Of a stretch of 20,638 nt of DNA, positions 100 through 18,134 are shown piece by piece (position 1 is the first letter of the stretch; each line of letters begins with the position of its first letter). The notes beneath the pieces were generated by a model. The model searched no databases. It was given only the letters and a program-made list of their open reading frames with translations, and was not told where the DNA came from. Location: positions 14,320 to 34,957 of the IMG/VR virus record IMGVR_UViG_3300001097_000011. The stretch is one strand, 5' to 3'. Origin of the DNA: a virus. The position numbers and the translations under genes are program-made.

Positions 100-100
100 A

Positions 101-1662: not shown

Positions 1663-1667
1663 ATACT

Positions 1668-4435: not shown

Positions 4436-4438
4436 CGG

Positions 4439-6286
4439 ATGTCAGAAGATAAAAAAACTTCAATATTTTCAAAAATAGTAGACGCAGCTAATTTAGCGTT
4501 AGAAGATACTATAGCAAAGTCTAGAGCTTCTCTAGCTTCTAAGGGTAGTTTATCGGAAGAGGACTATTTTTATGCTAAAACATTAACAGAAGACCCAACA
4601 ACTTCGGTCCATGCTCAAGGATGGAGAGAAAGAACTTCGAGAATAAACGCAAGCCATTTAAAACAAATGTCTTACCAAGATAGCGTTATAACTTCTGTGA
4701 TATTAACTAGACAAAACCAAGCATCTTTACACTCTAAGCTAGTTGGCAACAAAAATCTTCCTGGATGGATGATTGAAGTCAAAGACGTAAGAGATAAGAT
4801 AGCGAAGATAAAAGAAAAAATGTCTTCTAAAAAACCTAAAAAAAATAAGAAAAACGATAACTTAGAAAATCCTGACGTTTCAGATGGAAGCGATGATGAC
4901 ATAGAAGAGATTGACTGGGAGTTAGAGCGTAAAGCTCAAGCTGAGTTAACAAAAGCTACAGAAAAGAAAATGAAAGAAGTAGAAGCTTTTATTCAAAACT
5001 GCGGAATTACTGACAATAGACCTTTCGAGACTTTAAAGTGGACTTTTGACGGAGCGCTTAGAGCGTGGGTTCGAGACTCTTTAACTTACGATCTGTATGC
5101 TTCTGAGATAGTTCCAGGAAAGCTAGGACAACCGCATCACTGGTTTCCAGTAGATGCCGCTACTATCAAATATTCATCTAGTCAACTTAGTAATTATAAA
5201 GACGCTGCCGAACAGTTCCAAAATATTGATATTCTTTTCCCTGAATCTAACCCTCAAAAAAGAGAAAAAGTTCAAGAAAGACTGAAGTTAGATGAAGAGG
5301 CTTTACGTTTAGACAAATACAAATGGGTTCAAGTAGTCCGTGGTAGAATAGAAAGAGCTTACACTCATGAAGAGCTAAAAGTAGGCATTAGAAACGTAAA
5401 CACTGATATTTATAATAATGGATATGGTATTTCAGAGTTAGAGCTTTTAGTTTCATTAGTTACTGGCCATCTAAATGCTGAATTTTATAACCAAGCTTAT
5501 TTTACACAAGGATTTAGCGCAAAAGGAATTTTGCATATTAAAGCCAATATCTCTAGAAGAAAAATAGAGACAGTTCGCCAACAATGGCAACATATGTTAA
5601 AAGGAAGCAGAAACTCTTTTCAAACTCCTATTTTTGCAGGAGTAGACGAGGTTTCATGGATACCTTTGACTCAAAATCATACAGATATTGGTTTTGAAGG
5701 CTGGATGCGTTACTTAATTAGAATGATTTGTGCCATTTACCAAATAGACCCAGCTGAAATCGGAGTAAATTTAAAAGATGAAGGCGGAGGCGGAATGTCT
5801 GGAGATAACACTAAAGAGAAGATAATTCACTCCAAAGGCAGAGGTCTTTATCCTTTAATGAGACACTTAGAAAACTACATAAACACTAATATATTAGCTC
5901 CTTCTTATCCAGAGTTTGAGCTTAAGTTTTGCGGTTTAACTGGCGAAAGCGAAGAGGAATTAGTAAATAGACTTGAAAAAGAAGTTAAGTTTGCCAAAAC
6001 TGTTAACGAAATTAGAAAAGAGTTAGACTTACCGCCACTTCCTGGAGTAGATGATTTAATTTTAAATAATGAGTATCTTAACCATTATAATAGATATTCT
6101 AAGAAAGCTCAAGAAATTCCAGACCCAGCTATGGGAGGATTTCAACAAGACGGAGCACCGCCAGAAGGGGAAGCCGAAGACCCTCAAGTAGAAGAGGCTT
6201 TTGCTTTACTTAATAAGTCTAAGTCGGTACAATCTAAAGGAAAAAAAGTACCTAGAATTATAGAGTACTACTACGACGAGGATTAA
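4439..6286 (+). CDS. Portal protein
   Basis: A 615-residue protein immediately after the large terminase with the profile of a phage portal: the dodecameric ring at the packaging vertex that docks the terminase and later the neck. The recognisable part is the C-terminal half, with WIPLTQNHTDIGFEGWMRYL and ICAIYQIDPAEIGV, typical of the region where portal proteins inspect and list candidate residues near the channel crown, followed by a glycine-rich loop (DEGGGGMSGD). Residues about 110-165 form an unusual insertion with a strongly basic run (SSKKPKKNKKNDN) followed by an acidic run (DGSDDDIEEIDWE), likely a surface loop. The C-terminus is proline and acid rich, then basic. Ribosome binding is weak (AAAAGGG). 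Promoter and hairpin lie just upstream. Confidence 0.88.
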   Translation: MSEDKKTSIFSKIVDAANLALEDTIAKSRASLASKGSLSEEDYFYAKTLTEDPTTSVHAQGWRERTSRINASHLKQMSYQDSVITSVILTRQNQASLHSKLVGNKNLPGWMIEVKDVRDKIAKIKEKMSSKKPKKNKKNDNLENPDVSDGSDDDIEEIDWELERKAQAELTKATEKKMKEVEAFIQNCGITDNRPFETLKWTFDGALRAWVRDSLTYDLYASEIVPGKLGQPHHWFPVDAATIKYSSSQLSNYKDAAEQFQNIDILFPESNPQKREKVQERLKLDEEALRLDKYKWVQVVRGRIERAYTHEELKVGIRNVNTDIYNNGYGISELELLVSLVTGHLNAEFYNQAYFTQGFSAKGILHIKANISRRKIETVRQQWQHMLKGSRNSFQTPIFAGVDEVSWIPLTQNHTDIGFEGWMRYLIRMICAIYQIDPAEIGVNLKDEGGGGMSGDNTKEKIIHSKGRGLYPLMRHLENYINTNILAPSYPEFELKFCGLTGESEEELVNRLEKEVKFAKTVNEIRKELDLPPLPGVDDLILNNEYLNHYNRYSKKAQEIPDPAMGGFQQDGAPPEGEAEDPQVEEAFALLNKSKSVQSKGKKVPRIIEYYYDED

Positions 6287-6288
6287 AA

Positions 6289-6501
6289 TTGTCTTCTATA
6301 AAAATAAACATTCCTAAAGGTATGAGTCAGGACCAAGCTGACGACATACTTTTAAAAGCTCTCAAAAGAAAGGAAGACGGTAACGTTGGCCCTTCTGTTT
6401 TTGAAGATGAAATAATGAAGGAAGTGTTTAATATTTTTAAAGATAACTACGAAAAAATGTCAGAAAAGATAATAAAAGAGATCTTAGATGAACTTAAGTA
6501 A
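6289..6501 (+). CDS. Hypothetical small helical protein, 70 aa
   Basis: Unrecognised, 70 residues, lying between portal and MuF-like genes. TTG start at 6289 with GAGGA ending in the portal stop region; no ATG is available before residue 10 or so. The sequence is helical and charged (MSEKIIKEILDELK at the end), without Cys or hydrophobic segment. It overlaps the next gene by 14 bases, so the three genes probably form one translational unit. It may assist portal or minor head protein assembly, but this is only from position. Confidence 0.65.
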   Translation: MSSIKINIPKGMSQDQADDILLKALKRKEDGNVGPSVFEDEIMKEVFNIFKDNYEKMSEKIIKEILDELK

Positions 6502-7318
6502 AGAGCTTTTAGCCAAAATCAAAAAAATCATTGAAAAAAACCATACATTTCTAACCCTTTCTGTGTTAGGAAAGAGCTCCTTTACCAAAGAAGAGGTAGA
6601 AGAGTTCAAAAAATTAACAGGTAAAGAACCCAACAACGAAAAATCCTTGTTGGAGTATGTTTATCTTTCTAACTTTGCAGATACTCCAGTTAAAAACTTA
6701 AGCGAATTAGACTCTATAAAAACCCCTAGAAAAGACACAATACTTCAATCAGATGAAGTTATAAAGACTTTGATTGCAAAATTATCCCAAGACATGAGTC
6801 AAAAAATGCTAAATAGTCTTATAGACGTTACTAGATCGTATAGAAATGAGGACTTCACAGAAGCGCTTAAAAACAAGTCTTTTTCTGAGATAAAACAGAG
6901 ATTTAAAGACATATCTGGAGACGGAAATAGAGATTGGGGAAGAGTCGTTGCTACCGAAATGTCAAACCTAATAGGTTATGGTTCAGTAGACAAAATCCTA
7001 AAAGACGGAGGCGACCCAGAAGAAACCTATGTATTTAGAAAGATTGTAGGGGACATAAAAACTTGTCGCTGGTGCCGTAAGTTTTACGGAGAAAATACCC
7101 CAAAAGTATATAAACTATCGACTTTATTAGCTAATGGCTCTAACTATGGAAAACTTAAAGAAGACTGGCAAGGCGTAGTAGGTGCTACACATCCTAATAC
7201 TAGAACAAGTCCAATAATTGAAATCCCAGTAGGTTATATCCCAAATTCCTCTGGAGTGCTTACTTTTGTAGGTAAAGAAAAATTCTTAGAATTTATTGAA
7301 GAAAATTTAGAATCTTAG
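6488..7318 (+). CDS. MuF-like minor head (head morphogenesis) protein
   Basis: A 276-residue protein next to the portal with the C-terminal signature of the Mu gpF / SPP1 gp7 family: a Cys pair in KTCRWCRKFYG (Cys193, Cys196) followed about 50 residues later by ATHPNTRTSP (His245 to Arg249). In most family members the second element is HPNCRC; here both later cysteines are replaced by Thr, so a canonical Cys4 metal site cannot form and only C-x2-C plus His remain. The N-terminal 120 residues are helical. In SPP1 the homologue sits inside the capsid on the portal and influences DNA ejection. The start ATG at 6488 overlaps the previous gene. Its end contains the -35 box of the next promoter. 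Confidence 0.8.
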   Translation: MNLSKELLAKIKKIIEKNHTFLTLSVLGKSSFTKEEVEEFKKLTGKEPNNEKSLLEYVYLSNFADTPVKNLSELDSIKTPRKDTILQSDEVIKTLIAKLSQDMSQKMLNSLIDVTRSYRNEDFTEALKNKSFSEIKQRFKDISGDGNRDWGRVVATEMSNLIGYGSVDKILKDGGDPEETYVFRKIVGDIKTCRWCRKFYGENTPKVYKLSTLLANGSNYGKLKEDWQGVVGATHPNTRTSPIIEIPVGYIPNSSGVLTFVGKEKFLEFIEENLES

Positions 7319-7319
7319 G

Positions 7320-7350
7320 TTTACTTTTTACTCTTTTTTGTATAAAATTT
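7320..7350 (+). promoter_or_regulatory. Class A promoter: TTTACT, 17-base spacer, TATAAAATTT
   Basis: TTTACT at 7320-7325 is followed by 17 bases and TAAAAT at 7343-7348 in TATAAAATTT. The ATG of the next gene is at 7355, six bases past the -10 hexamer, again where transcription should start. No ribosome binding site is present. Nearly identical in plan to the elements at 1632 and 10233. Confidence 0.65.
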
Positions 7351-7354
7351 GTAT

Positions 7355-7564
7355 ATGAAAAGACTAGAAGAAGGCCAGATAATCTTTAAAAAAGAGACTC
7401 CAGAAGAACTATTTTATGTTTTAGGAGTAAAAAAAGAGACTTTAAAAGAGATTATAGTGTCTTTTTTAATATTAGATAAATCGACAATGGAGTCAAAGAA
7501 AGGATTAAGTCTAACCATTAAAAAAGCTGAGTTATCTAACTGGAGCGAGTTTAAACTAACATGA
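7355..7564 (+). CDS. Hypothetical protein, 69 aa, probably leaderless
   Basis: Not recognised. From ATG 7355 it gives 69 residues beginning MKRLEEGQIIF, rich in Lys and Glu with beta-type hydrophobic runs (EIIVSFLILDK). A TTG six bases upstream (7349) is in frame, but it lies inside the promoter and is rejected in favour of the ATG, which sits at the predicted transcription start. Its last bases overlap the next ATG (7561-7564), the common ATGA coupling. It opens the accessory block between the portal genes and the capsid genes. Confidence 0.7.
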   Translation: MKRLEEGQIIFKKETPEELFYVLGVKKETLKEIIVSFLILDKSTMESKKGLSLTIKKAELSNWSEFKLT

Positions 7565-8052
7565 GTCAACTACAAGAACTATTAACTAAACTTCAGAAAC
7601 AAAAATCTAAGATAGAGCTTTTAAACATCTATAAGCAGGTTTTAAACCAAACGTGTATACCAGACTCAGACACAGATAAGCATCTTAAAGAAGTTGAACA
7701 AGACGTTAAAAATTCTATTGTTCTTTTTATTGAAAAGTTTATAGAAAAATTAGAAACGGTAGAGTCTGCCGCTCCTACTCCAATAGCTCCAATAATCAAC
7801 AAAGTAGAAAGTAAAGGACCTATTCCAGAACCAAACTTCGCTTTAGATTTATCTGAGAAGTATTCTTTAATAGAAAAACAACACTTTGGCATTACTCACA
7901 GGCACCTAGCAGGGAAGGTAGTTTATGTAAACGACCCTTCCGGAGAAAACTACAGTGGCGAAGTGGTGCAGTTAAACTGTCCTTACGTTATAGTTAAAAC
8001 AAGTTCAGGAATAAAAAAAGTAACCTTAGAAAGCATTAGCCTTGGAGAATAA
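7561..8052 (+). CDS. Hypothetical protein with coiled-coil N-terminus and SH3/KOW-like C-terminus
   Basis: A 163-residue unknown. Residues 1-25 and 40-70 form charged amphipathic helices, then a proline-rich linker (SAAPTPIAPI) leads to a beta-rich C-terminal module of about 45 residues: HLAGKVVYVNDPSGENYSGE, then a strand pair with VIVKTSSGIKKV. The pattern of short strands with G-K-V-V-Y at its start resembles SH3-like or KOW-type barrels that bind protein or nucleic acid; this is a fold guess. Start overlaps the preceding gene by 4 bases and the stop is two bases from the next ATG, so it belongs to the 7355-9472 operon. Confidence 0.75.
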   Translation: MSQLQELLTKLQKQKSKIELLNIYKQVLNQTCIPDSDTDKHLKEVEQDVKNSIVLFIEKFIEKLETVESAAPTPIAPIINKVESKGPIPEPNFALDLSEKYSLIEKQHFGITHRHLAGKVVYVNDPSGENYSGEVVQLNCPYVIVKTSSGIKKVTLESISLGE

Positions 8053-8054
8053 AG

Positions 8055-8597
8055 ATGGGAAAAAAGAAACAGCCAACAAAATCATTTGAGCATATAGTAT
8101 CAGACATGACAACTAAGAAGTTTGAACCACTAATCAAGCAGCTTATTGCAGAGTCTTTCTCTCAATTTGCGTTTAAGTATAACGATACTTTACGAGATCT
8201 ATTTTTAAAGGTAGCCGTTATTGACGATATTTTAACTGAAAAAATTGAAACTATTAGCTTTAACGGTATAGCTAGTAGAGTAGCAGATAAACAGGATGTA
8301 ATGGAAGGCTACAAAAGTTTGAAAGGTCCAGAAGAAAAAATTACCGCTAACGATAGAGTTAGAATTTCTATGGAAATTAAAGAAAAAGACGCAGCTGATT
8401 TTGGCGAAGTTCAAAAATTACAGATAGATGCAGTAGGTTCTGGACAAACATTAGGTATTGAGTTTGAAACTCATTTAATAGATATGGTCAATTATACTAC
8501 AAAAGAAGTTATTCTAAAAGGTAAAGACGAAACAGATCAAGTAGCTGGAGTAACTATTAGAGTTGTAGTAGATAAAATCTCTAGAAAAGAGGCATAA
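8055..8597 (+). CDS. Hypothetical protein, 180 aa, upstream of co-chaperonin
   Basis: Not recognised. The first 60 residues are helical with a basic start (MGKKKQPTKSFEH). Residues about 60-180 are probably beta-rich, with alternating strands such as RVRISMEIKEKD and GVTIRVVVDKISR at the end. No Cys, membrane segment or catalytic motif stands out. Start ATG 8055 is two bases after the preceding stop, and its stop is one base from the GTG of the GroES-like gene. Because the next gene is a co-chaperonin, a structural or assembly-client role is possible but unproven. Confidence 0.75.
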   Translation: MGKKKQPTKSFEHIVSDMTTKKFEPLIKQLIAESFSQFAFKYNDTLRDLFLKVAVIDDILTEKIETISFNGIASRVADKQDVMEGYKSLKGPEEKITANDRVRISMEIKEKDAADFGEVQKLQIDAVGSGQTLGIEFETHLIDMVNYTTKEVILKGKDETDQVAGVTIRVVVDKISRKEA

Positions 8598-8598
8598 A

Positions 8599-8853
8599 GT
8601 GAAGATTGCAATGAGAAAAAAGTTAGTGGCAGTAGAGCCAGACACTAAGCCAAAAGCTAGTGGTCCTTTTGTTGGAATGGACTCTGATAATAATACTTCT
8701 GGAATAGTTAGATTTTTAGGTCCAGACGTAGATCAAGACATTAAAATAGGCGCTAAAGTGTTTTTTGCAAGTAAAATAGCTAACTTAGTCATAGAAGGAA
8801 AAAATTTAAGTATCATGGAGTCTGATAATATTGTAGCCATTGTTGAGGATTAA
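8599..8853 (+). CDS. GroES-like (Cpn10) co-chaperonin
   Basis: An 84-residue protein with the layout of GroES, whose usual length is about 97. The N-terminal strand KKLVAVEPD matches the GroES opening; residues about 16-33 (KASGPFVGMDSDNNTSG) occupy the mobile-loop position that contacts GroEL; GIVRFLGPDV is the following strand; IKIGAKVFF matches the conserved GD-x-V-hydrophobic segment; and the end LSIMESDNIVAIVED closely matches the GroES C-terminus. It probably caps the host GroEL to fold capsid proteins, as T4 gp31 does. GTG at 8599 is preferred over ATG 8611 because it keeps the full first strand; GAGG lies upstream. The next gene starts four bases after the stop. Confidence 0.85.
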   Translation: MKIAMRKKLVAVEPDTKPKASGPFVGMDSDNNTSGIVRFLGPDVDQDIKIGAKVFFASKIANLVIEGKNLSIMESDNIVAIVED

Positions 8854-8857
8854 TCAG

Positions 8858-9472
8858 ATGTCTAAAAAAAATCCTGTAAAAAGTTTAGATTTAGACACGG
8901 CTAAAACTTCTGTAGAAAACAAAATAACCATGACTTCACTCTTACTCAGCTATCAGTTTGAGTATGGAGTTAACTTTAATGAAAGAATAATAAACTTGAC
9001 TGGAGACATAGACGAAACTATGTTCTTTGTTTTAGACTCAGCTTTAAATGAGATGGAAACTAAATCCAAAAAAGATATCGTTATTAAAATTCATTCGGTA
9101 GGAGGAAATGTTTACGATGCATTGGCTATCGTGGGCAGAATAACTGAATGTAAGTGTAAGATAATCACTAAAGGGTACGGTTGTGTCATGAGTGCCGCTA
9201 CCTTAATATTAGCTTCTGGAACCAGACGAAGAGAAATATCTAAGTATGGTAGATTTATGTGGCATGAAGCTTCCTATTCTTTAGAAGGAAAACATTCAGA
9301 AATAAAAGCTACCGTAAAAGAAATGGAAAGAGAAGAGGCTTTATTTTCAGAGTACATGGCAGAATTTACCAAAAAGGACGCTAAATTCTGGAGATCTACT
9401 GGAGTACACGAGGATGCATATTTTTCACCTAACCAGCTAAAATCTTTTGGCGTGGTAGACGAGGTATTTTAA
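8858..9472 (+). CDS. ClpP-like serine peptidase (family S14), cytoplasmic
   Basis: A 204-residue ClpP-type peptidase. VIKIHSVGGNVYDALAI matches the ClpP N-S-P-G-G-x-V segment, with Val replacing Pro. The nucleophile is Ser112 in GCVMSAATLI and the catalytic His is His136 in FMWHEAS. The ending SFGVVDEVF corresponds to the ClpP GLID motif. The third residue is not assigned with certainty. There is no signal peptide. Start ATG 8858 has GAGG 10 bases upstream; an in-frame TTG at 8840 lies inside the co-chaperonin gene and is rejected. S14 peptidases in head modules often serve as prohead proteases, but this phage also encodes a herpes-assemblin-like candidate at 11871, so this one may process another virion protein or modify host proteolysis. 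Confidence 0.85.
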   Translation: MSKKNPVKSLDLDTAKTSVENKITMTSLLLSYQFEYGVNFNERIINLTGDIDETMFFVLDSALNEMETKSKKDIVIKIHSVGGNVYDALAIVGRITECKCKIITKGYGCVMSAATLILASGTRRREISKYGRFMWHEASYSLEGKHSEIKATVKEMEREEALFSEYMAEFTKKDAKFWRSTGVHEDAYFSPNQLKSFGVVDEVF

Positions 9473-10209
9473 TGAATATATTTGAAAAAGCAATTTTAGA
9501 GATGTTAGAGGTAAAAACTACTCCCAGAGTAAAAACTACCAAAAACTTCGCTCCTTCTTTGTTAGGGTCGCCTTGCGAAAGAAAGATCTATTACACTTAT
9601 AACTGTGTAGCAGAAGAGGCCATAAAGCAGACTTTACCATTAAAGGTAGCTTTAGAAGCTGGAAAGGCATACGAGGAAATAGTTCTAGGCTTTCTAAGAA
9701 ACGCAGGTATGACTTTAGTTGAAGACCCCATCTCATTTAACAAACAAATTCAGATATCTAGCCCTGAAATAGGGATAAATAAGGCATTTATAGACATTTT
9801 GCACGTTAAAGACAACGTAGCCTATGTAGGAGAGATAAAGTCTTGTACCCTAAAAGATTTTAAGGATATAGAAAAGAAAAACCTTCCCAAGCCTACACAT
9901 TTAGTTCAGGGAGTTTTGTATTTATATATCTTAAGAAGTATGTTAAAAAATGGTAGACTAGCCCACCTAAAGGAGATGAAAGACGTTAAAACCATAAAAA
10001 GCATCTCTTTTATCTATATATGTAAGGATTCTGGAGCCATAAAGATCATGGAGCTAGATAAGGCAGATGGAGTTTTTACCGACATCTACAAAAAGATTAC
10101 TAAAATTAAGGAGTTTTCTGAAAAGAAGATACTCCCACCTAAAACTTTTGACTTTTGTATGAATTGTCCCTTTAAATCCAAGTGTTACAGGGAATTTAAT
10201 GACATTTAA
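9472..10209 (+). CDS. Cas4/RecB-like PD-(D/E)XK nuclease with Fe-S cluster
   Basis: A 245-residue nuclease with the Cas4/AddB arrangement. Four cysteines that would bind a 4Fe-4S cluster flank the nuclease core: Cys35 in SPCERKIY, and Cys229, Cys232 and Cys238 in DFCMNCPFKSKCY at the C-terminus. Between them lie the catalytic elements: Glu68/69 in KAYEEIV, Asp109 region in FIDIL, GEIKSC with Glu121 and Lys123, and the Q-x3-Y motif in HLVQGVLY. All residues expected for activity are present. Such enzymes degrade single- or double-stranded DNA ends, and phage copies function in recombination, replication or host DNA breakdown. No CRISPR genes or repeats are nearby. Its ATG shares bases with the ClpP-like gene's stop, so the two are translated together. 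Confidence 0.88.
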   Translation: MNIFEKAILEMLEVKTTPRVKTTKNFAPSLLGSPCERKIYYTYNCVAEEAIKQTLPLKVALEAGKAYEEIVLGFLRNAGMTLVEDPISFNKQIQISSPEIGINKAFIDILHVKDNVAYVGEIKSCTLKDFKDIEKKNLPKPTHLVQGVLYLYILRSMLKNGRLAHLKEMKDVKTIKSISFIYICKDSGAIKIMELDKADGVFTDIYKKITKIKEFSEKKILPPKTFDFCMNCPFKSKCYREFNDI

Positions 10210-10232
10210 TTCAAATATTTTAGCTGTTTTTA

Positions 10233-10263
10233 TTAACTTTTATATGATTTGTAGATATAATTT
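10233..10263 (+). promoter_or_regulatory. Class A promoter: TTAACT, 17-base spacer, GATATAATTT
   Basis: TTAACT at 10233-10238, a 17-base spacer and TATAAT at 10256-10261 in GATATAATTT. The ATG of the 59-residue gene begins at 10268, six bases after the hexamer. No ribosome binding site precedes it. The element lies in the short gap after the nuclease gene. Confidence 0.65.
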
Positions 10264-10267
10264 TGAT

Positions 10268-10447
10268 ATGAAAGAGTCGGTAACCGTTTTAAAAATCAGA
10301 CAACAATTAAGGAATAGCCTTCTTTTCTGTTTAAATCAATCTATAATTAATTTTAAAGTAGCTAATGCCTTAAAAGAGGACATTAATTTTTGTAATGTTT
10401 TATTAGCTTCTTTAAACAAACAATATAATGAAAAGGTATATAAATGA
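10268..10447 (+). CDS. Hypothetical protein, 59 aa, probably leaderless
   Basis: Unrecognised. From ATG 10268 it encodes 59 residues (MKESVTVLKIRQQL at the start), helical, with two Cys and a basic C-terminus. The frame is also open upstream to an ATG at 10199, but that version would overlap the nuclease gene and be read through the promoter; the internal ATG at the predicted transcription start is preferred. Its stop overlaps the next ATG (10444), so it seems to serve as the leader cistron of the membrane protease operon. Confidence 0.6.
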   Translation: MKESVTVLKIRQQLRNSLLFCLNQSIINFKVANALKEDINFCNVLLASLNKQYNEKVYK

Positions 10448-11442
10448 GTAATCTAGGAATAGTTTTAAGAGTTTCTTTAGTAGCCGTAGTTGTTTCACTG
10501 TTTATATTTCTTTCTGGTTCTCCACAAGAAATAAGATCATTTGCTAAAGGCATAGGAGTTGACGCTCCAGTTATTGATAATACAACTATAATCCCTTATA
10601 AAAAAGAGTTTATCCCAGAAGCTTCTAACTTAGTATTACTTTCAACAAACGATCAACAAACAGAAGGACAACCAGAAAGATTAACTTTAGAAAAGGGTAG
10701 CTTTTATTCCTTTAATAGTGTTGTTACTAGCTCTTACGTTGCTACTTCTATGCAAGCTATAATGAAGCTAGACCAAGAGTTAGAAAAAGGCAAGCCTTTA
10801 TATTTAGTTTTAAATACCCCTGGAGGTTCTATTTTTTCAGGAGTAGAGTTTATTGATTTCCTAAAAGGATTAGATAGAGAAGTTAAAACAATTTCTTTAT
10901 TTAGCGCATCAATGGGTTTTGCCTTCGTTCAAGAGCTAGGAGAGAGAATAGTAACCGATAACTCTCTTCTAATGGCACATAGATCAGCTGGAGGAGTAGA
11001 GGGACAGTTTGATGGCGAATTAGAGTCTAGATATAACATGATAAAGAGAAAAATAGACCTTTTAGAGATTAGAGCGGCAAAAAGACTTCAAATTCCAGTG
11101 AAAGATTATAGACAAAAAGTATTAAATGAATACTGGGTCCACGGTTTTGACGCAGTAGGCGACAAAGCTGCCGATAAAAACGTAAGATTAAAGTGCGGCA
11201 GTAGTCTTTCTGGTACAAGTGTTAAACAAATTCCTTTTGTTTTTGGAATAATTTTGCAGGTAACTTTCTCAGATTGTCCTTTAATAAAAGAGCCATTAGG
11301 AATTACAGCTAAACTTCCAGAAGAAAGCTCAAAAGAATTAGTTAAACAAGCAAAAGATTTAGTAAACGAGTTACATTCTAGTAAAGAAACCTTCTTTAAT
11401 GACTATGTAAAGACTGGAAGATATAAGTTGTTTTTCAAATAA
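10444..11442 (+). CDS. Membrane-anchored ClpP/SppA-like serine peptidase
   Basis: A 332-residue ClpP-fold protein with an N-terminal hydrophobic segment at about 5-24 (VLRVSLVAVVVSLFIFL), either a signal peptide or an uncleaved anchor; no lipobox Cys follows. The core has LVLNTPGGSIFSGVEF (the N-x-PGG-x-V strand-turn), nucleophile Ser156 in FSASMGFAF, catalytic His179 in LMAHRSAGG, and YWVHGFDAVGDKAAD, matching the ClpP segment before its GLID motif. After about residue 235 there is a tail of about 95 residues with two Cys (near 241 and 278) that could form a disulfide outside the cytoplasm. Its function is unknown; possibilities are envelope proteolysis during infection, superinfection control or lysis support. 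It is coupled to the preceding 59-residue gene by a 4-base overlap. Confidence 0.8.
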   Translation: MSNLGIVLRVSLVAVVVSLFIFLSGSPQEIRSFAKGIGVDAPVIDNTTIIPYKKEFIPEASNLVLLSTNDQQTEGQPERLTLEKGSFYSFNSVVTSSYVATSMQAIMKLDQELEKGKPLYLVLNTPGGSIFSGVEFIDFLKGLDREVKTISLFSASMGFAFVQELGERIVTDNSLLMAHRSAGGVEGQFDGELESRYNMIKRKIDLLEIRAAKRLQIPVKDYRQKVLNEYWVHGFDAVGDKAADKNVRLKCGSSLSGTSVKQIPFVFGIILQVTFSDCPLIKEPLGITAKLPEESSKELVKQAKDLVNELHSSKETFFNDYVKTGRYKLFFK

Positions 11443-11444
11443 AT

Positions 11445-11822
11445 ATGAAAAAGACTTCTCTAAAACTCCTTAATAATAATCCTTTACCTGAAGAATCTAC
11501 TTTTTTCAGGTCTTGTCCCTTATTTTTAAGCTTTTTACCAGAGAAACCATGCCCAAAAGGTGCTCCCATTTACAATAAAGCTAAGATACAATCATTAGGA
11601 AGCTGCGCTTGGTCTATAACTTTAGAAAAATATAACTATTGTTTTTGGACTTATGTAGCTAAAACATCCGAAAAAAACGGAATAATGAAAGAACACACTA
11701 ATAGTGAAATAGCTAGAATTTTAGGTATTCCCTCAAATAAAGCTTCTGTAGAAATAGAAGAGGCTTTTGACGCTTTAAAAGAGCTCTTCATAAAGCATAA
11801 TACTCACACTTATATTAAGTAA
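11445..11822 (+). CDS. Four-cysteine protein with sigma region 4-like helix-turn-helix
   Basis: A 125-residue protein in two parts. The first 70 residues hold four cysteines at 24, 36, 54 and 66, in spacings of 11, 17 and 11 intervening residues; SCPLF, PCPKGAP, GSCAWS and NYCFWTY are the local contexts, suggesting a metal or Fe-S site or paired disulfides. Residues 83-117 read EHTNSEIARILGIPSNKASV then EIEEAFDALKELF, resembling sigma-70 region 4 helix-turn-helix domains. I infer a DNA-binding regulator. Similar small Cys plus HTH proteins occur in other phage genomes, from memory only. Start ATG 11445 lies two bases after the preceding stop. It is the last gene before a class B promoter. Confidence 0.7.
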   Translation: MKKTSLKLLNNNPLPEESTFFRSCPLFLSFLPEKPCPKGAPIYNKAKIQSLGSCAWSITLEKYNYCFWTYVAKTSEKNGIMKEHTNSEIARILGIPSNKASVEIEEAFDALKELFIKHNTHTYIK

Positions 11823-11834
11823 TTCTAAAAATTA

Positions 11835-11844
11835 GGTAAAATAT
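11835..11844 (+). promoter_or_regulatory. Class B promoter GGTAAAATAT
   Basis: A 9-of-10 match to the recurring GRTAWAATTT motif in the gap before the prohead protease. TTAAGT is 16 bases upstream, a poor -35 at best. Predicted start is near 11849; TGGAGAAATA then provides the ribosome binding site for ATG 11871. The short CTC/GAG pairing in this leader is too weak to call a hairpin. Confidence 0.5.
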
Positions 11845-11870
11845 TAGAACAAGCTCTTTTTGGAGAAATA

Positions 11871-12974
11871 ATGTCTCAAGATATTTTAAAAGCAATAATC
11901 CCAGCCGAACTATTCAAATCAGAGGACGGAGAGTGGAAAATCAGAGGTTTAGCTTCTACAAATGAGCTAGATCAACAAGGTGAGATAGTTTTGCAATCTG
12001 GCATTGACTTAACTCCTATTGACCAAAAGAAAGGCGTTATTAATTATGACCACAGACCAGGTCCAGAAAACATAATTGGTCTTTTAGACGGTTATGTCAA
12101 AAACGAGAAAGGTCTTTATATCGAAGGGCGCTTACTTAAGAACCATTCTAAAGCAAAAGCAGTATATGAGATCATGTCTTCTTTATCTGAAAAAGATAGA
12201 GGTAGAGTAGGGTTATCAGTAGAGGGTAGAATCCTTAAAAGAAACGCTTTAAATCCAAAAATTATTGAAAAATGCGAAATTAATGCCGTAGCTATTACTT
12301 TAAACCCAGTAAATAGAGCTACTTACGCTGATTTAGCAAAATCTATGCAGGTTGACTTTAACTCTGAGTCTTTGGACACAGAAAAAGATTATTCAGGTCC
12401 TGTTTCTTTTACCGCAGAACAAGTATTAGAAATGATACAAAAAGCACTAAGTGCAGGTGCTCCATCAACACAAGCTCCAGCTGATAGAAGTGGCGGAGCC
12501 GCTTTAGGTAAAGAAGATTTGGATAAAAATTGTTGGACAGGCTATAAAAGAGTTCCAGGAACTAAAGAGTTTTCTGACAATTCTTGTGTAAAAAAGAACG
12601 AAGATATGGATAAAGGTGGTCCAGGTTCTGGTCCGACAGGTTCTGGTACTTCAAGTAACTATAATTCTGAGTATACAGCCATTATGTCTAAGTTTAGAGA
12701 ATTATCACAAGTTCCACAGTCTAAGGAAGAATTTGAAAGATATTCTAATCAAATAGGTAAAGATATAGATGCTATAAACGTTAAATATGGCAAACCTAGA
12801 GGCTATGCTCCAACTTATAAAATGGTAGCTAAAAGTGCTTTAATTAAATCAAATATTTTAGAAGTTTTAGAGAGATTACAAACATTACATCCAGAAACCA
12901 AAAAAGCAGAACTTTGGGAGTCGTTAAAAGATAGGCTTTTAACTAAATTTCCAGATATAAACGAAGAATTTTAA
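11871..12974 (+). CDS. Prohead (capsid maturation) protease with extended C-terminus
   Basis: A 367-residue protein. Residues 1-150 fit the HK97-type/assemblin-like prohead proteases: IRGLASTNELDQQGEIV is the family opening, His61 in VINYDHR the catalytic His, and Ser116 in VGLSVEGR the nucleophile; the third residue is uncertain. The remaining half is atypical: a proline/alanine linker (near 195-206), a cysteine-bounded segment CWTGYKRVPGTKEFSDNSC (221-239), a glycine-rich GGPGSGPTGSG (249-259), then about 105 residues of helical sequence. In many phages the protease is fused to a scaffold-like domain, which may be what the tail is. The protease would digest scaffold and trim capsid protein in the prohead. 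TGGAGA precedes ATG 11871. A class B promoter lies 27 bases upstream. Confidence 0.82.
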   Translation: MSQDILKAIIPAELFKSEDGEWKIRGLASTNELDQQGEIVLQSGIDLTPIDQKKGVINYDHRPGPENIIGLLDGYVKNEKGLYIEGRLLKNHSKAKAVYEIMSSLSEKDRGRVGLSVEGRILKRNALNPKIIEKCEINAVAITLNPVNRATYADLAKSMQVDFNSESLDTEKDYSGPVSFTAEQVLEMIQKALSAGAPSTQAPADRSGGAALGKEDLDKNCWTGYKRVPGTKEFSDNSCVKKNEDMDKGGPGSGPTGSGTSSNYNSEYTAIMSKFRELSQVPQSKEEFERYSNQIGKDIDAINVKYGKPRGYAPTYKMVAKSALIKSNILEVLERLQTLHPETKKAELWESLKDRLLTKFPDINEEF

Positions 12975-12977
12975 TTA

Positions 12978-13007
12978 GGTATAATTTAAAAGTTAGGAGA
13001 AATAACT
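12978..13007 (+). promoter_or_regulatory. Class B promoter GGTATAATTT with RBS-containing hairpin
   Basis: GGTATAATTT occupies 12978-12987, three bases after the protease stop, with no -35-like box. Predicted transcription start, about 12991-12992, falls at the foot of a 5-bp stem, AGTTA (12991-12995) with TAACT (13003-13007), whose 7-base loop GGAGAAA holds the ribosome binding site. The hairpin ends directly before ATG 13008. The stem is short and AT-rich, so any effect on translation would be modest. Confidence 0.55.
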
Positions 13008-13139
13008 ATGAGTGACGATTTAAAAAAAGCATTAGCGGTAGCATTAGCAGCTAAAAAAGACGGTAAAAACGTTTCAGACGAGCTAGTTAACATTATTGAA
13101 ACCCTTTTGACTAGAGTGTTAGCTCTAGAGAACCCATAG
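13008..13139 (+). CDS. Hypothetical 43-residue helical protein
   Basis: A very short gene of 43 residues: MSDDLKKALAVALAAKKDGK, then a second helix with ELVNIIETLLTRVLAL, ending ENP. It fills a gap between the protease and scaffold genes, has its own class B promoter, an AGGAGA ribosome binding site eight bases upstream and the local codon style. It looks like a helical hairpin and has no Cys or membrane segment. The function is unknown; position suggests a capsid or scaffold accessory. The next gene's start is eight bases after its stop. Confidence 0.65.
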   Translation: MSDDLKKALAVALAAKKDGKNVSDELVNIIETLLTRVLALENP

Positions 13140-13147
13140 GACTTATT

Positions 13148-13867
13148 ATGAAAAATGATTTACAAAAGTCCATTGATATGTTAATTGACGACATTTTTGC
13201 TCCACAAGAGATGGAAAAGTCTATTGATATTAAGCATGACGCTAAAACTACTCCTGAAAACATGAACGAGCCTACTGCAAAGAATGACAAAGATAGAAAC
13301 GCAGGTCGATCAAAAGGTATTTCTGGAACTGACCCTAAAAACTATGATTATGATGACGACATCACTGCAAAACTAGCAGAAGAGGATGTAGAAGAGTCAG
13401 ATCAAGTAGTAATTCCTGAGTCTATGAAAAAAGCTTATGAAGTTGTTATTTCTGAAGAGGAGTACGAAGAGTTATTGTCTTTCAAAAAGTCTATGATTGC
13501 TTCAGAAGATCTTAAGAAAGCTGAAAAAGCTAAAGAAGACCAAGAAGAGCTAATTAAGTCTGCGGTTAAAAAAGAAACTGAAGAACTTAAAAAAGCGCTT
13601 TACGATCAGACAGAACTTATAAAAGCTTTTGCTAAAACTCCTGAGCGTCCTAAGTCTATTACTGGAATTTCTCAATTAGAGAAGTCTGTTAACAGAGAAG
13701 GAAGCCCATCAAACACATTTACTAAGAGTGATCTTTTAAATGCAGCTGAAGAATTGGCTAAGTCAAACACTATTTCTGTAGATGACGTTATTGAACTTGA
13801 AATGACTGGTTATATTCATAACCCTCGTACTAGAGCTTTAATTGAAGAGAAATTAAACGGAAAATAA
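13148..13867 (+). CDS. Putative head scaffolding protein
   Basis: A 239-residue, very charged and mostly helical protein between the protease and the major capsid protein, the usual slot of a scaffold. It has no Cys and no Trp. The middle (about residues 105-175) is a Lys/Glu-rich heptad-like helix, EEYEELLSFKKSMIASEDLK and on, typical of scaffold coiled coils; the first 80 residues are acidic and probably disordered. The last 60 residues contain LLNAAEELAKSNTISVDDVI then ELEMTGYIHNP, a globular tail of a kind I recall from other phage head proteins. It would organise capsid protein into the prohead and then be digested. GGACT ahead of ATG 13148 serves as ribosome binding site; a strong terminator lies downstream. 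Confidence 0.72.
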   Translation: MKNDLQKSIDMLIDDIFAPQEMEKSIDIKHDAKTTPENMNEPTAKNDKDRNAGRSKGISGTDPKNYDYDDDITAKLAEEDVEESDQVVIPESMKKAYEVVISEEEYEELLSFKKSMIASEDLKKAEKAKEDQEELIKSAVKKETEELKKALYDQTELIKAFAKTPERPKSITGISQLEKSVNREGSPSNTFTKSDLLNAAEELAKSNTISVDDVIELEMTGYIHNPRTRALIEEKLNGK

Positions 13868-13900
13868 TCTATTCTATCAAATTAATATCAAAAAGTAAAG

Positions 13901-13931
13901 AAAAGTCTTCGGTAAAAGGAAGGCTTTTTTG
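13901..13931 (+). terminator. Rho-independent terminator after the scaffold gene
   Basis: AAAAGTCTTC (13901-13910) pairs with GAAGGCTTTT (13919-13928) through a 10-bp stem with one G-U pair and an 8-base loop GGTAAAAG, followed by a T-rich run. It separates the protease/scaffold unit from the capsid protein unit, whose promoter begins seven bases later. Confidence 0.8.
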
Positions 13932-13937
13932 TTTTGT

Positions 13938-13947
13938 GGTATAATTT
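13938..13947 (+). promoter_or_regulatory. Class B promoter GGTATAATTT of the major capsid gene
   Basis: A perfect copy of the recurring motif right after the terminator. TGG precedes TATAAT, so it also fits an extended -10. No -35 box exists because the upstream sequence is terminator stem. Predicted start is near 13952. Confidence 0.7.
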
Positions 13948-13951
13948 TTTT

Positions 13952-14018
13952 TATAAATCACATTATTCTTACAAGAATCGAAATCACGAAAAAACCAATT
14001 TAATAGGAGACATTATAA
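13952..14018 (+). promoter_or_regulatory. Leader of the major capsid mRNA
   Basis: About 67 bases of leader, the longest here. It contains a small hairpin, ATTCT (13965-13969), loop TACA, AGAAT (13974-13978), an A-rich unstructured stretch, and a near-consensus AGGAGA at 14005-14010 eight bases before ATG 14019. This fits high-level translation of the most abundant virion protein. Confidence 0.5.
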
Positions 14019-15425
14019 ATGTCACAAGAATTAAGATATGCTAACGACCAATCAGTAATCGGTTTCGGTAGTCATAGTGCAAGTAAGGTAGAAGAGCTAC
14101 AAAAAGCTTTAGCTATTACTCAAAACTATGGTACTACTGCTTCAAATGCTTTGACTGGCGGTTCTGCATTAGCCGTAGAAGATCTAGACAAAACATTAAA
14201 ATTAGTAACCAACACACTTGGTCACCTAAAATTATGGAAAGATATTATCAAAGAAAATCAAGCTCAAGTTGTTTCTGAGTATAACGTTCAAAACTCATAT
14301 GGACAGGAAGTTTCTCCTTTCTTCAATATGGGCGGATTGCCACAAAGTACAGATGCTAATTATGACCGAGAGATCGTTCAGGTTAAGTATCTTGGAACAC
14401 AAGGTCAAGTTCAACATAACTTAACTTTAATCCAACCTGCACACGGTCCAGTTATAGCTAGAGAAGTTAAGAATAAGACTATTGAGTTATTGTCTCGTAA
14501 CGAGCGTTATATGTTTGAAGCTGATTCTAACATCAACACTCTTGAGTATGATGGAATTAAGAGTCAAATTGAAGTTAAAGAAGCTCAAGCTCAATATAAA
14601 TCTACTGCATTTGCAGGTTATGAGAGTGGCGAAGATTCAGTTATAATTGACGTAAAAGGTCAGTTTACTGACGTAATTGCTGAGAAAATGGCTTTAACAA
14701 ACGTTAACAACTTCGGTATGGCTATGGATTGTTACCTAGCTTCAGATGTTCATTCTCGTTTTTCTACAGACTTCTTTAACAAGCAAAGAGTTCAATCTGG
14801 AGAAGTTCTTACTTCTGGTAACCGTATTAAGGAACACCAAGGTATTATCGACTTTAGATTTAAGCCTAGTTTATTTAACCGTCCAAGAATTGCTCCTTTG
14901 AATGTTTCTGTTTCTGCTAGTGCAGCTCCAACTTTGGCTAACCCAACTTCTCCTGTAGACGCTCTTAGTAAGTTTGCTACAGCTGACGCTGGTGCTTATG
15001 GTTACAAAGTTTCAATGATTTATGCAGACGGAGAGACACTTCCTTCAGCTACTGCTACAGTTACTGTAGCAGCTGGTGACAGTGCTACCGTTGAGATTTC
15101 ATTCACTGGTAACCCAATTTATGCTAACGTTTTTAGAACTGCTCTTGGAGATGCAGCTGGTGTAGTTAAATTCACTAAGCGTATTTCTGTAGGTGCTTCT
15201 GCTACTGCAATAGCTATCGACCTTAACAAAAAAGTTCCTGGATCTTCTGAGGCTTTCTTGTTGATGCACGATGCGGACACTTTAGTCTGGAGACAATTAG
15301 GTTCATTAATTAAGTATGACCTAGCAGTAATCGACACAAGCTACCGATGGGCACAGTTAATGTATGGTACACCGCTTATATCTGCGGCTAGAAAACATAT
15401 AGTAGCTACAAACATCACTGCATAA
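14019..15425 (+). CDS. Major capsid protein (HK97-like) with inserted Ig/FN3-like domain
   Basis: A 468-residue protein with its own promoter, strong ribosome binding site and a terminator on each side, following protease and scaffold. The N-terminal part, with LKLWKDIIKENQAQVVSEYN near 90-110 and long helices rich in Gln and Glu, and the ending DTSYRWAQLMYGTPLISAAR are consistent with an HK97-type fold. Residues about 300-405 look inserted: AYGYKVSMIYADGETLPSAT, then VTVAAGDSATVEISF, NVFRTALGD and FTKRISVG, the strand pattern of an Ig or fibronectin type III domain that would project from the shell. The helix-rich scaffold gene and this gene are not fused. A processing site for the prohead protease may lie in the first 60 residues, but none can be placed. 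Confidence 0.88.
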   Translation: MSQELRYANDQSVIGFGSHSASKVEELQKALAITQNYGTTASNALTGGSALAVEDLDKTLKLVTNTLGHLKLWKDIIKENQAQVVSEYNVQNSYGQEVSPFFNMGGLPQSTDANYDREIVQVKYLGTQGQVQHNLTLIQPAHGPVIAREVKNKTIELLSRNERYMFEADSNINTLEYDGIKSQIEVKEAQAQYKSTAFAGYESGEDSVIIDVKGQFTDVIAEKMALTNVNNFGMAMDCYLASDVHSRFSTDFFNKQRVQSGEVLTSGNRIKEHQGIIDFRFKPSLFNRPRIAPLNVSVSASAAPTLANPTSPVDALSKFATADAGAYGYKVSMIYADGETLPSATATVTVAAGDSATVEISFTGNPIYANVFRTALGDAAGVVKFTKRISVGASATAIAIDLNKKVPGSSEAFLLMHDADTLVWRQLGSLIKYDLAVIDTSYRWAQLMYGTPLISAARKHIVATNITA

Positions 15426-15449
15426 TTTAAAACTAATAATATAGTGCTT

Positions 15450-15482
15450 AAAACCCTTAAACAAACTTTAAGGGTTTTTTTT
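15450..15482. terminator. Bidirectional rho-independent terminator
   Basis: AAAACCCTTAAA (15450-15461), loop CAAAC and TTTAAGGGTTTT (15467-15478) form a perfect 12-bp stem with a long T tail on the + strand and a short TTTT on the - strand. It lies between the major capsid gene and a convergent gene on the minus strand and can end both transcripts. Confidence 0.88.
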
Positions 15483-15486
15483 ATTT

Positions 15487-15711
15487 TTAACGTCCTTCTA
15501 GATCTTTTTTTAGTTCAGCTCCAAAAGCTACCCCAAGAAGAAAGACATCCAATTCTGCCACTTTATAAATACCAATAACCGCTCTTGGAACTTTTACAGT
15601 ATTTAAACACTGATTATCAAATAATCCAGCTACTATTCCCATAAAAGCTTGATACTCTACAAAGCCGTTTATGATATGTCCATACTTTAAAGCTTCTTTA
15701 GTTTTAAACAT
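15487..15711 (-). CDS. Hypothetical minus-strand protein, 74 aa
   Basis: Unrecognised 74-residue protein, second gene of a two-gene minus-strand unit. It begins MFKTKEALKYGHIINGF, has two moderately hydrophobic stretches (FMGIVAGLF and ELDVFLLGVAFGAEL) but no clear membrane segment, and one Cys. Its start follows a GGAGAT ribosome binding site inside the end of the upstream gene, two bases after that gene's stop. Transcription would end at the bidirectional hairpin right after its stop. Codon style is like the rest of the window. Confidence 0.65.
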   Translation of the reverse strand: MFKTKEALKYGHIINGFVEYQAFMGIVAGLFDNQCLNTVKVPRAVIGIYKVAELDVFLLGVAFGAELKKDLEGR

Positions 15712-15713
15712 TT

Positions 15714-15992
15714 TTAATCTCCAGAGTCAATTACAGCTTTTATTAATATAATAGTATCGCCTTCAGGGGATTTTGTATACAAAAAACTTCCTTCTGGACA
15801 AATTGGTCCTTTCATTTTTCTAAAGGCATACTCACCTAACGATAAAGCCTCTTCTAAAGAGGAAGGCTGTTTTATAAACTGGCTAACCGAAAAAAACTCT
15901 TTAACTTCCCATGCGGAGGTTATTTTATCTAGGTCGATATGCTCATAAACACTAACACAGCCTTTTTGTGATTTTAATACTAAGTTTTTCAT
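15714..15992 (-). CDS. Hypothetical minus-strand protein, 92 aa
   Basis: Unrecognised 92-residue protein, first gene of the minus-strand unit. It begins MKNLVLKSQKGCVSVYEHID and is a mixed alpha/beta sequence with two Cys and no membrane segment. The ATG at 15992 has AGGAGA about nine bases upstream on the minus strand, good evidence that it is a true gene rather than a shadow. It runs against all other genes in the window and is flanked by a divergent promoter region and a bidirectional terminator, as is typical of an inserted accessory cassette. Confidence 0.75.
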   Translation of the reverse strand: MKNLVLKSQKGCVSVYEHIDLDKITSAWEVKEFFSVSQFIKQPSSLEEALSLGEYAFRKMKGPICPEGSFLYTKSPEGDTIILIKAVIDSGD

Positions 15993-16022
15993 TTACTTTT
16001 GTCTCCTTATATGATTTAATAT
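15992..16022 (+). promoter_or_regulatory. Plus-strand promoter TTTACT, 17-base spacer, TTTAAT
   Basis: TTTACT at 15992-15997 stands exactly 17 bases ahead of TTTAAT at 16015-16020, itself inside GATTTAATAT, an 8-of-10 match to the recurring motif. Spacing and -35 equal those of the class A elements, but here the ATG (16071) is about 44 bases downstream of the predicted start near 16027, with AAAAAGG as ribosome binding site. Confidence 0.5.
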
Positions 16023-16046
16023 AGCAATAAAAGAAGTAAAAAGAAA
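16018..16046 (-). promoter_or_regulatory. Minus-strand promoter overlapping the plus-strand one
   Basis: On the minus strand TTTCTT (16046-16041) is 17 bases ahead of TATATT (16023-16018), with a predicted start near 16011 and a short leader holding AGGAGA for the gene at 15992. Its -10 shares bases with the plus-strand -10, so the two cannot easily be used on one DNA molecule at the same time. Confidence 0.4.
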
Positions 16047-16070
16047 TATTTATCTTTAAAAAGGTTTAAA

Positions 16071-16265
16071 ATGGTACATTTATTAATGATTTTATTCTTA
16101 AATTGCCCAGAGACGGTTATAAAAAACTACTCAGACGAGCCTGTAAATGAAAAACTTCTTGTACAAGCTACTAAAACTTGTCAAGCTAACTATGGTAAGT
16201 GCTTAAAATTGTTAATAAAAAAGAAAGACAAACATCACTACGCTATATGCGGAAAAGGAAATTAG
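16071..16265 (+). CDS. Small exported four-cysteine protein
   Basis: A 64-residue protein with a short hydrophobic start (MVHLLMILFLN), then four Cys in the order NCPET, KTCQANY, GKCLKLL and AICGKGN, at about 12, 37, 44 and 60. The pattern C-P, then C-x3-Y-x2-C-L with Y-A-I-C-G at the end is one I recall from a widespread small phage and bacterial family, probably periplasmic with two disulfides; its function is unknown to me. If exported, the leader is short for a signal peptide, so export is inference. ATG 16071 has AAAAAGG upstream. It opens a five-gene run ending at 17398. Confidence 0.7.
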   Translation: MVHLLMILFLNCPETVIKNYSDEPVNEKLLVQATKTCQANYGKCLKLLIKKKDKHHYAICGKGN

Positions 16266-16266
16266 T

Positions 16267-16572
16267 ATGGAAAAAGATAATCAAAAAGAGATTTATAAAA
16301 TCGAAGAGAAATTGATTAAAGACGGAAGAAAAGAGTTATTAAAAGAAATCGCAGGAGAGTCAGAAACCGCTGTAAACACTAGACTTTTAAATCTTGCCAA
16401 ATACGAGCAAGACATTATTACTTCTAAGAATGAAGACGCTGAGTTAACTTCTTTAAGCAATCAAGTAAAAGAGCTAAAAGCTCCTTATGCTGAGGCTTTA
16501 AAAGCTAATAAGCTTATTAGAAGATACATTACGTTGTATTTAAGGGAATTTCATGGTACTGACGCTGGTTAA
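16267..16572 (+). CDS. Hypothetical coiled-coil protein, 101 aa
   Basis: Not recognised. It is almost wholly helical and charged, with MEKDNQKEIYKIEEKLIKDG at the start and a likely coiled coil near 60-85 (LTSLSNQVKELKAPYAEALK). No Cys or membrane segment. Start ATG is one base after the preceding stop, with GGAAA upstream; it overlaps the next gene by 20 bases. Small helical proteins near capsid and tail genes often act as chaperones or connectors, but there is no motif to support that here. Confidence 0.7.
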   Translation: MEKDNQKEIYKIEEKLIKDGRKELLKEIAGESETAVNTRLLNLAKYEQDIITSKNEDAELTSLSNQVKELKAPYAEALKANKLIRRYITLYLREFHGTDAG

Positions 16573-16927
16573 TTATTTAAAAAACTTATATAAAGTTTAT
16601 ATTACTGAGGTCTTTTTTGAGTTTAAAGACCCTAAAGAGCTTTATTTTATTCAAAAAGTTGAAGATTTGAATGTTAGGCTGTTTTGGGCTAGAGACTCTA
16701 GCGACATTATGCGAAGCATTTACGAAATTCAAGGTAAAGAAACGCTTACGTTAGAGTTAGAAGAGCTTCTAGCGGAGCTTACTTTAGAAATACTGTTTAG
16801 ATACACAGAGTTAAGAGATTGTTACGGATATGAGTTATCTGATAAAAAAGTAGAAGAATACTCATATCTTCGACATTCGATATACTGTAATAAAGGACTA
16901 TGTTCCTTTTTAACGGAGGTTATATAA
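16553..16927 (+). CDS. Hypothetical acidic protein, 124 aa
   Basis: Not recognised. A 124-residue acidic protein with many aromatic residues early (LYKVYITEVFFEF) and a long helix rich in Leu and Glu in the middle (LTLELEELLAELTLEILFRY). Three Cys lie in the C-terminal third. AGGGAA precedes ATG 16553, supporting this start despite the 20-base overlap with the previous gene. Its stop overlaps the next ATG by one base. Confidence 0.7.
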   Translation: MVLTLVNYLKNLYKVYITEVFFEFKDPKELYFIQKVEDLNVRLFWARDSSDIMRSIYEIQGKETLTLELEELLAELTLEILFRYTELRDCYGYELSDKKVEEYSYLRHSIYCNKGLCSFLTEVI

Positions 16928-17175
16928 TGACAGAAGTAACTTGTTTTTGTGGTAAAAGTAAGAAGAATTTTAAATTTTTAACTGACTTGACTGGCTTTCA
17001 CGCAGAGTGTTGCGAAGAGGCAGGTTTTAATTACTTAGGTGTACAAGTAGTTAAACCTAAAAAGAAAGAAGCAGAACCCCTTATTAAAGAAATGCAGATT
17101 ATAGAGCCAAAACCTCTTAAAATAGCTAATAAAAAGCTCGGAAATACCAAAAAAAATGGAACCAAAGCAAACTAA
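16927..17175 (+). CDS. Small putative zinc-binding protein, 82 aa
   Basis: An 82-residue protein. The first 40 residues carry TCFCGKSKKNFKF and GFHAECCEEAGF: a C-x-C pair, then His and C-C, which could bind one zinc ion in a short ribbon. The rest is a Lys/Pro-rich, probably disordered tail ending in KKNGTKAN. ATG 16927 is chosen because ACGGAGG lies seven bases upstream; an in-frame ATG at 16900 lies before that site and inside the previous gene. It overlaps the next gene by 20 bases. Its role is unknown, perhaps nucleic-acid binding. Confidence 0.65.
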   Translation: MTEVTCFCGKSKKNFKFLTDLTGFHAECCEEAGFNYLGVQVVKPKKKEAEPLIKEMQIIEPKPLKIANKKLGNTKKNGTKAN

Positions 17176-17398
17176 GATTTTTGAAACAAATAACCTAGAC
17201 TTCGCCACTTTTCTTTTAATGGAAGGTGAGCGACTATTAGAGCTAAGAAAAGACGGACCTAACGTCTTTATGCGCTTTATTGACGACCTAGGCAAATGTA
17301 GAGACTTAGAACAGGTTTATTTACGCAGTGACGTAAAGAAATTTGGAGAGCTTCGTAAGTGGCTTCTTAAGAAGGTCCACGAGGAACTTAACTCCTAG
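17156..17398 (+). CDS. DUF5659-like protein, 80 aa
   Basis: An 80-residue protein. TNNLDFATFLLMEGERLLEL, followed by F-x-x-F-I-D-D-L, a Y-L-R-S-D element and the ending LRKWLLKKVHEEL fit the small phage family I know as DUF5659; the match is from memory. The family has no known function. Start ATG 17156 overlaps the previous gene by 20 bases; a later ATG at 17219 would cut away the conserved opening. It is the last gene before the class B promoter at 17401. Confidence 0.65.
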   Translation: MEPKQTKIFETNNLDFATFLLMEGERLLELRKDGPNVFMRFIDDLGKCRDLEQVYLRSDVKKFGELRKWLLKKVHEELNS

Positions 17399-17400
17399 TT

Positions 17401-17430: not shown

Positions 17431-17446
17431 TTTTAAAGGACTAGGT

Positions 17447-18133: not shown

Positions 18134-18134
18134 A

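Follow-up and report, generated by a model that had tools for sequence, protein, structure and literature searches.

The gene at 11445-11822 (plus strand) of the window, by which we mean the whole 20,638-nucleotide stretch of viral DNA analysed, encodes a 125-aa protein, P0001, that founds an uncatalogued phage protein family. P0001 joins an N-terminal module with four cysteines to a helix-turn-helix (HTH) like that of sigma region 4.2, and we regard it as a candidate RNA-polymerase-associated regulator, with the sigma-4.2-like domain in a protein of its own, that would act at the phage’s extended -10 promoters. This function is one that we infer, at a probability of roughly 0.42. The family, its synteny and a lineage-wide class of extended -10 promoters are new annotation, and are testable even if the function proves to be a different one.

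P0001 is a genuine gene under purifying selection and not a chance open reading frame, since dS is 0.39-0.46 and dN 0.034-0.037 in comparisons with three close relatives (93-94% protein identity), a dN/dS of about 0.08 (0.07-0.09); the family alignment, A5, likewise supports the frame. Its ATG lies two bases past the stop of the preceding gene, which encodes a ClpP-like protein with a hydrophobic N-terminus (10444-11442, plus strand), and the gene that follows encodes the head maturation (prohead) protease (11871-12974, plus strand; phrog_1028, E 2.5e-40). The record that carries it, G000, is a virus of 47 kb in which its neighbours are a terminase, portal, GroES, ClpP-like head protease, Cas4-like exonuclease, second ClpP-like protein, prohead protease, scaffold-like protein (a name given from gene position) and an SPO1-type major capsid protein (14019-15425, plus strand). 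Three protease-like genes (8840-9472, 10444-11442 and 11871-12974) are arranged around the Cas4-like exonuclease and GroES-like genes, an order that is kept in relatives. Terminator-like hairpins number 24 in positions 1-20000 of the window against 9.7 (sd 3.4) in shuffles, one example following the capsid gene (15450-15478).

A search of IMG/VR with P0001 alone returned only four close relatives. Nothing was found at E <1 by tblastn of the members P0001, L013, L107 and L133 against 50,697 phage records, PDB sequence searches gave no match with E <0.01, and a scan of genome contigs with A3 gave 304 pattern matches and no confirmed relative. Wider reach came through the major capsid gene, which led to 27 loci by capsid protein and 40 by capsid alignment; profile and sequence searches of the open reading frames in these loci recovered diverged members (20-35% identity, 109-184 aa), and the link from P0001 to the far member L133 runs via L107 and the family profile. 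Whole-record scans found a single family copy in each of 10/10, 7/8 and 2/9 records, the latter two sets overlapping in G011, for a total of 19 of 26 distinct records; the 126 kb record of L133, G026, stands outside both the profile scan and this count. The seven records with no family gene, G011 and six reached by the L097 capsid protein, all belong to one distant clade. In L097 itself an unlike small CxxC...CxxC protein (3110-3376) precedes the prohead protease, and a -35/-10 promoter-like sequence (TTGACA) also lies upstream of that protease. No published description of the family was found in a literature search whose scope left out most subscription journals.

The cysteines of P0001 (residues 24, 36, 54 and 66) lie at intervals of exactly 11, 17 and 11 residues, as a reading of the sequence made without database searches (the sequence-only reading) had stated. 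They form a first C-x11-C pair, Cys24 and Cys36 (CPLFLSFLPEKPC; 11514-11552, plus strand), and a second that includes invariant tryptophans, C54-A-W56 ... C66-F-W68 (11604-11648, plus strand). Both pairs recur in 18 of 33 members (pattern C-x11-C ... C-x-W-x9-C; N-terminal shuffles gave a mean of 1.5 and a maximum of 5) and the second pair in 27; the strict two-pair pattern is unmatched in 15, a count that takes in L025, which the pattern missed and in which just four residues separate the two pairs. Because both pairs are retained in L107, L109 and L133, the most divergent members, the two-pair arrangement is probably ancestral, and since both are kept in only 18 of 33 members it is not required for the family; a strictly conserved four-cysteine metal site was rejected. 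Loss of C54 accompanies a scarcity of N-terminal cysteines (18/4/1/5 in a table without L002 and L004, Fisher P 0.007, uncorrected for relatedness), with L088 as the one exception, and this pattern fits a putative metal site that has gone in some lines. In the 30-row alignment W56 and W68 are invariant, and M1, C66, F67, S75, G79, M81 and L111 are invariant or nearly so. In several members the C-terminus is an acidic tail. The exceptional L088 (2700-3254) carries an inserted, zinc-ribbon-like CxxC...CxxC segment, and a similar ribbon lies inside a DNA polymerase-like open reading frame of the window’s own record (L006, 5988-8684).

The HTH (11700-11795, plus strand; predicted helices 86-93 and 97-117 in an AlphaFold2 model) had been likened to sigma region 4, and this likeness is borne out through the relatives of P0001. 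Because the match of P0001 alone is weak (Pfam Sigma70_r4, PF04545, E 0.15, 12.1 bits against a curated cut-off of 24.1; phrog_1740, also weak, E 0.027), the resemblance rests on members such as L133 (E 1.1e-5, 25.3 bits, above the cut-off) and L033 (E 2.4e-4, 21.0 bits, below it). A Pfam match to sigma-70 region 4 at E up to 1 is found in 7 of 22 members, TIGR02937 of NCBIfam matches L088 (E 6.8e-4) and L133 (E 3.3e-5), and PHROG 351, a sigma factor, matches L088 (E 3.9e-4). The HTH also gave weak Tfx and GerE-like matches; among ten proteins scanned L094, L078 and L095 had no Pfam match, nor had two further proteins. Sigma-70 region 2, which reads the -10, found no match in any member scanned. 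The consensus of the recognition helix, NTKTHF, is departed from in P0001, L018, L025, L030, L034, L092, L094 and L095.

AlphaFold2 models were obtained for P0001 (pLDDT 77, pTM 0.68) and for L081 (pLDDT 82, pTM 0.62), both of which gave nothing at E <= 0.001 in Foldseek searches of the PDB, and a first comparison of the P0001 model with 10 chains gave no Z >= 2. When the L081 model was compared with 68 PDB chains, sigma factors, in each case aligned through region 4.2, took ranks 1-13 (Z 4.5 to 3.4), with CRP chains at Z of about 2. The best alignment places L081 residues 68-112 on residues 568-611 of E. coli sigma-70 (rmsd 1.4 over 44 residues) at a Z of 4.5, which is middling. Only residues 68-118 of the model align to sigma; region 4.1, the flap-binding part, is unmatched. 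The C-terminal domain resembles sigma region 4.2, with the N-terminal module occupying the position of region 4.1. Homology in sequence to sigma-70 region 4 is carried by relatives such as L133 and L033; the family protein is a stand-alone one, without regions 1-3 and with the Cys/Trp module in place of 4.1. The residues of the -35-reading helix of E. coli are not conserved in the family.

The ‘class B’ promoters of the sequence-only reading, described there as lacking a host-type -35 box, are real: they are a lineage-wide extended -10 class, G-n-TATAAT without a -35 signal. Exact copies of GGTATAATTT lie on the plus strand of the window before the portal gene (4408-4417), the scaffold-like gene (12978-12987) and the major capsid gene (13938-13947), the last being a full extended -10, TG-G-TATAAT. 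Sites with at most one mismatch number 9 against 2.97 expected, a count reached in 0 of 100 shuffles. P0001 had been placed just before the first dense cluster of these promoters, at 11835, 12978 and 13938, of which the sites at 12978 and 13938 are exact. The remaining one, GGTAAAATAT at 11835-11844 (plus strand), between the P0001 and prohead protease genes, is a weak extended -10-like member of the class because it has two mismatches from GGTATAATTT; better copies stand at the same position in relatives. One-mismatch copies are found upstream of P0001 at 10254 and 11245 and downstream at 17401, so that the class does not start at P0001. Two are GATATAATTT, on the plus strand at 10254-10263, apparently upstream of the unit of P0001, and at 17401-17410, before an open reading frame at 17447.

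Pooled over the loci, with near-identical sites merged (75% identity within each class), the extended -10 G two bases before TATAAT is present in 71 of 99 distinct intergenic plus-strand sites, compared with 39/151 and 19/146 in coding stretches and 3/37 for minus-strand sites between genes. When the -10 is kept constant, hexamers resembling a -35 show no excess (13/71 against 10.5, sd 3.0, in shuffles), and the sequence around the -35 of G-n-TATAAT sites is A-rich. Sigma-70-like -35/-10 pairs (10 of 12 matches) do occur in 34 segments of the family-bearing group, near-identical segments being merged, against 12.8 in shuffles; since no -35 excess remains once the -10 is fixed, we read this as an excess of TATAAT. 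In the window host-type promoters are not in excess (58 against 59.4 in shuffles). Of 39 loci, 20, for the most part divergent, have no exact TATAAT in the 220 bases that precede the capsid gene, and some of these carry variants such as TGTTACAAT. In the clade without the family no extended -10 enrichment is seen (0 sites against 0.8), a single contrast between groups that differ in base composition. Sigma regions 2 and 3 can alone read extended -10 promoters, and therefore no extra factor is required for a class without a -35; the earlier argument that a phage factor would explain the missing box is not supported, given the G in 71/99 sites. A tight pairing of promoter class with recognition helix was also rejected, as P0001, L018 and L025 depart from NTKTHF and have the same type of capsid-gene promoter.

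Our preferred reading is a small transcription factor that would work with RNA polymerase at G-n-TATAAT promoters. Its Cys/Trp module, ancestrally with two C-x11-C pairs, probably binds a metal or Fe-S cluster and would dock onto RNA polymerase, at the beta flap or on sigma; the HTH would sit upstream of the -10 on the DNA, in the place from which sigma region 4 otherwise reads the -35 box, and this would favour the G-n-TATAAT promoters that precede the genes for portal, protease, scaffold and capsid. In support of a polymerase-associated regulator are the region 4 homology in relatives and the thirteen top-ranked structural alignments to region 4.2, the presence of a single copy in each of 19 of the 26 records, and the conservation of W56, W68 and C66 beside the HTH. 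The -35-less promoters are moreover lineage-wide, with one right after the family gene in 25 of 31 loci, and the clade that lacks the family also lacks the promoter enrichment. Against it, extended -10 promoters are functional with sigma alone, the gene stands among structural genes, unlike the late factors of T4 and SPO1, NTKTHF is not kept in eight members and an exact TATAAT is missing before the capsid gene in about half of the loci compared, and the structural evidence consists of a middling Z with nothing found in the PDB by Foldseek at the threshold used. The sequence-only reading had seen in P0001 a candidate late regulator; the position of the family gene in the head cluster suggests that it is itself expressed late, and speaks against an early-to-late switch.

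Part of the same evidence could be read more locally. In those 25 of 31 loci a site with at most one mismatch lies in the interval from the family gene to the protease gene (the set has some near-identical pairs, among them the window with L009 and L107 with L109), against 5.4 (sd 2.0) in shuffles, and this constant position beside the protease promoter, along with the weak Tfx and GerE-like matches that place such an HTH in DNA-binding regulators as well, would suit a regulator that makes no contact with polymerase. It would bind an operator near the downstream promoter and tune the protease-scaffold-capsid unit, for example as a repressor keeping head proteins proportionate. We consider this rather doubtful, as G010 (109 kb) keeps the gene even though it has been displaced from the protease: L090, a locus of that record, has no family gene before its protease, and the copy lies outside the head cluster at G010:C1:8919-9230.

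Synteny would suit an accessory of head assembly or DNA packaging, or a virion protein, in which the HTH would serve DNA or protein contact and the cysteine module folding, with no task in transcription. When 35 loci, some of them overlapping pieces of one contig, were compared with the genes of the window, 33 had the family gene, in each case immediately before the prohead protease gene and between the portal-side genes and the protease; in L133 the order is portal, family gene, protease. The acidic tail of several members would also agree with such a role. We think it unlikely, however, because the homology is to sigma region 4 and neither to small terminases nor to head proteins, because a separate HTH-bearing candidate small terminase (by our own reading) is encoded at 2017-2580, and because SPO1, whose capsid is of the same type, lacks a gene at this position.

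Host shut-off genes are usually early, whereas this gene lies in the structural cluster, and this, with the flap-binding region 4.1 unmatched and only model residues 68-118 aligned, makes an anti-sigma or sigma-appropriating role highly unlikely. In such a role the protein would mimic region 4.2 and compete for the beta flap with region 4 of the host's sigma, so as to weaken -35-dependent host promoters and leave the -35-less phage promoters in use. A domain like region 4.2 with neither region 2 nor region 3 beside it, and phage promoters independent of the -35, are what such a factor would call for.

The polymerase-associated regulator has parallels in the split late sigma systems. T4 gp33, the late coactivator that acts with gp55, is likewise a small separate protein corresponding to region 4, and its phage too has -35-less promoters. 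One account describes it as mimicking sigma region 4 at the tip of the flap and repressing basal transcription, which also gives a sigma-appropriating factor its precedent, and describes T4 late promoters as lacking a -35 and resembling extended -10 promoters (PMC2988020); another reports gp33 to be structurally unrelated to sigma region 4 (PMC7892883). T4 gp33 has no Cys4 module and is encoded outside the head cluster. A mark of the gp33 family is binding to the beta flap tip and to a sliding clamp. SPO1, with its late sigma and accessory gp33/gp34, shares both a split late sigma system and the capsid type, but its two factors are encoded far from the head genes. Neither T4 gp33 (0.5 bits) nor SPO1 gp33 and gp34 (-1.6 bits) matched the family profile, so homology to them was rejected, and the family may therefore work like gp33, by analogy, without being a member.

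A more specific form of this proposal, which we hold to be somewhat unlikely, is a split sigma in which the region 4 function would reside in a separate protein braced by metal or an Fe-S cluster, independent of T4 gp55/gp33 and SPO1 gp34/gp33; it would couple polymerase to the -35-less promoters of the head genes, and might be gated by redox state or metal. If true, this would be a third, separately evolved phage takeover of the sigma region 4 position, by a region 4.2-like fold on a cysteine module, and would offer a handle on late transcription in an uncultured phage group whose longest records are 101-126 kb.

Other small proteins invite comparison. The WhiB-like proteins found in actinobacteria and in actinobacterial phages are small, have four cysteines and are linked with sigma region 4; WhiB binds region 4 and has no region 4-like domain of its own, and its cysteine spacing is unlike that of the family. 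The limited lists of Pfam matches obtained for scanned members contain no Whib model. In the viral library BFVD the best match of the P0001 model is A0A6J5KXK5, named ‘RNA polymerase sigma-70 region 4’; this protein and A0A6J7WTI0, both of uncultured Caudovirales phage, are predicted to fold in a similar way (probability 1.00; query-length TM 0.48) and differ in sequence, with 22-25% identity to P0001. For phage K, additional factors have been invoked because late genes lack clear canonical promoters (PMC11598898).

Sigma factors are also encoded within the group. A full sigma-70 over the cut-off is found in 6 of 27 records, in frames of 418-472 aa, and no sigma region 2 is detectable in G002 (121 kb), G012 (101 kb) or G016 (119 kb), records that may be fragments; a phage sigma-70 as universal partner of the family was rejected on these grounds. 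The full-length proteins are those of L049, L050, L051, L060, L103 and L104, and in several of them the region 4.2 helix is altered or degenerate: in L049-L051 the -35-reading helix carries TKMG or TKQG in place of the TRER of E. coli sigma-70, that of L060 is degenerate, and L103 and L104 retain more of it. Elsewhere, L006 has a GroEL-like frame (2-1549) whose start (HLYITDDFVPTHN) resembles an intein end.
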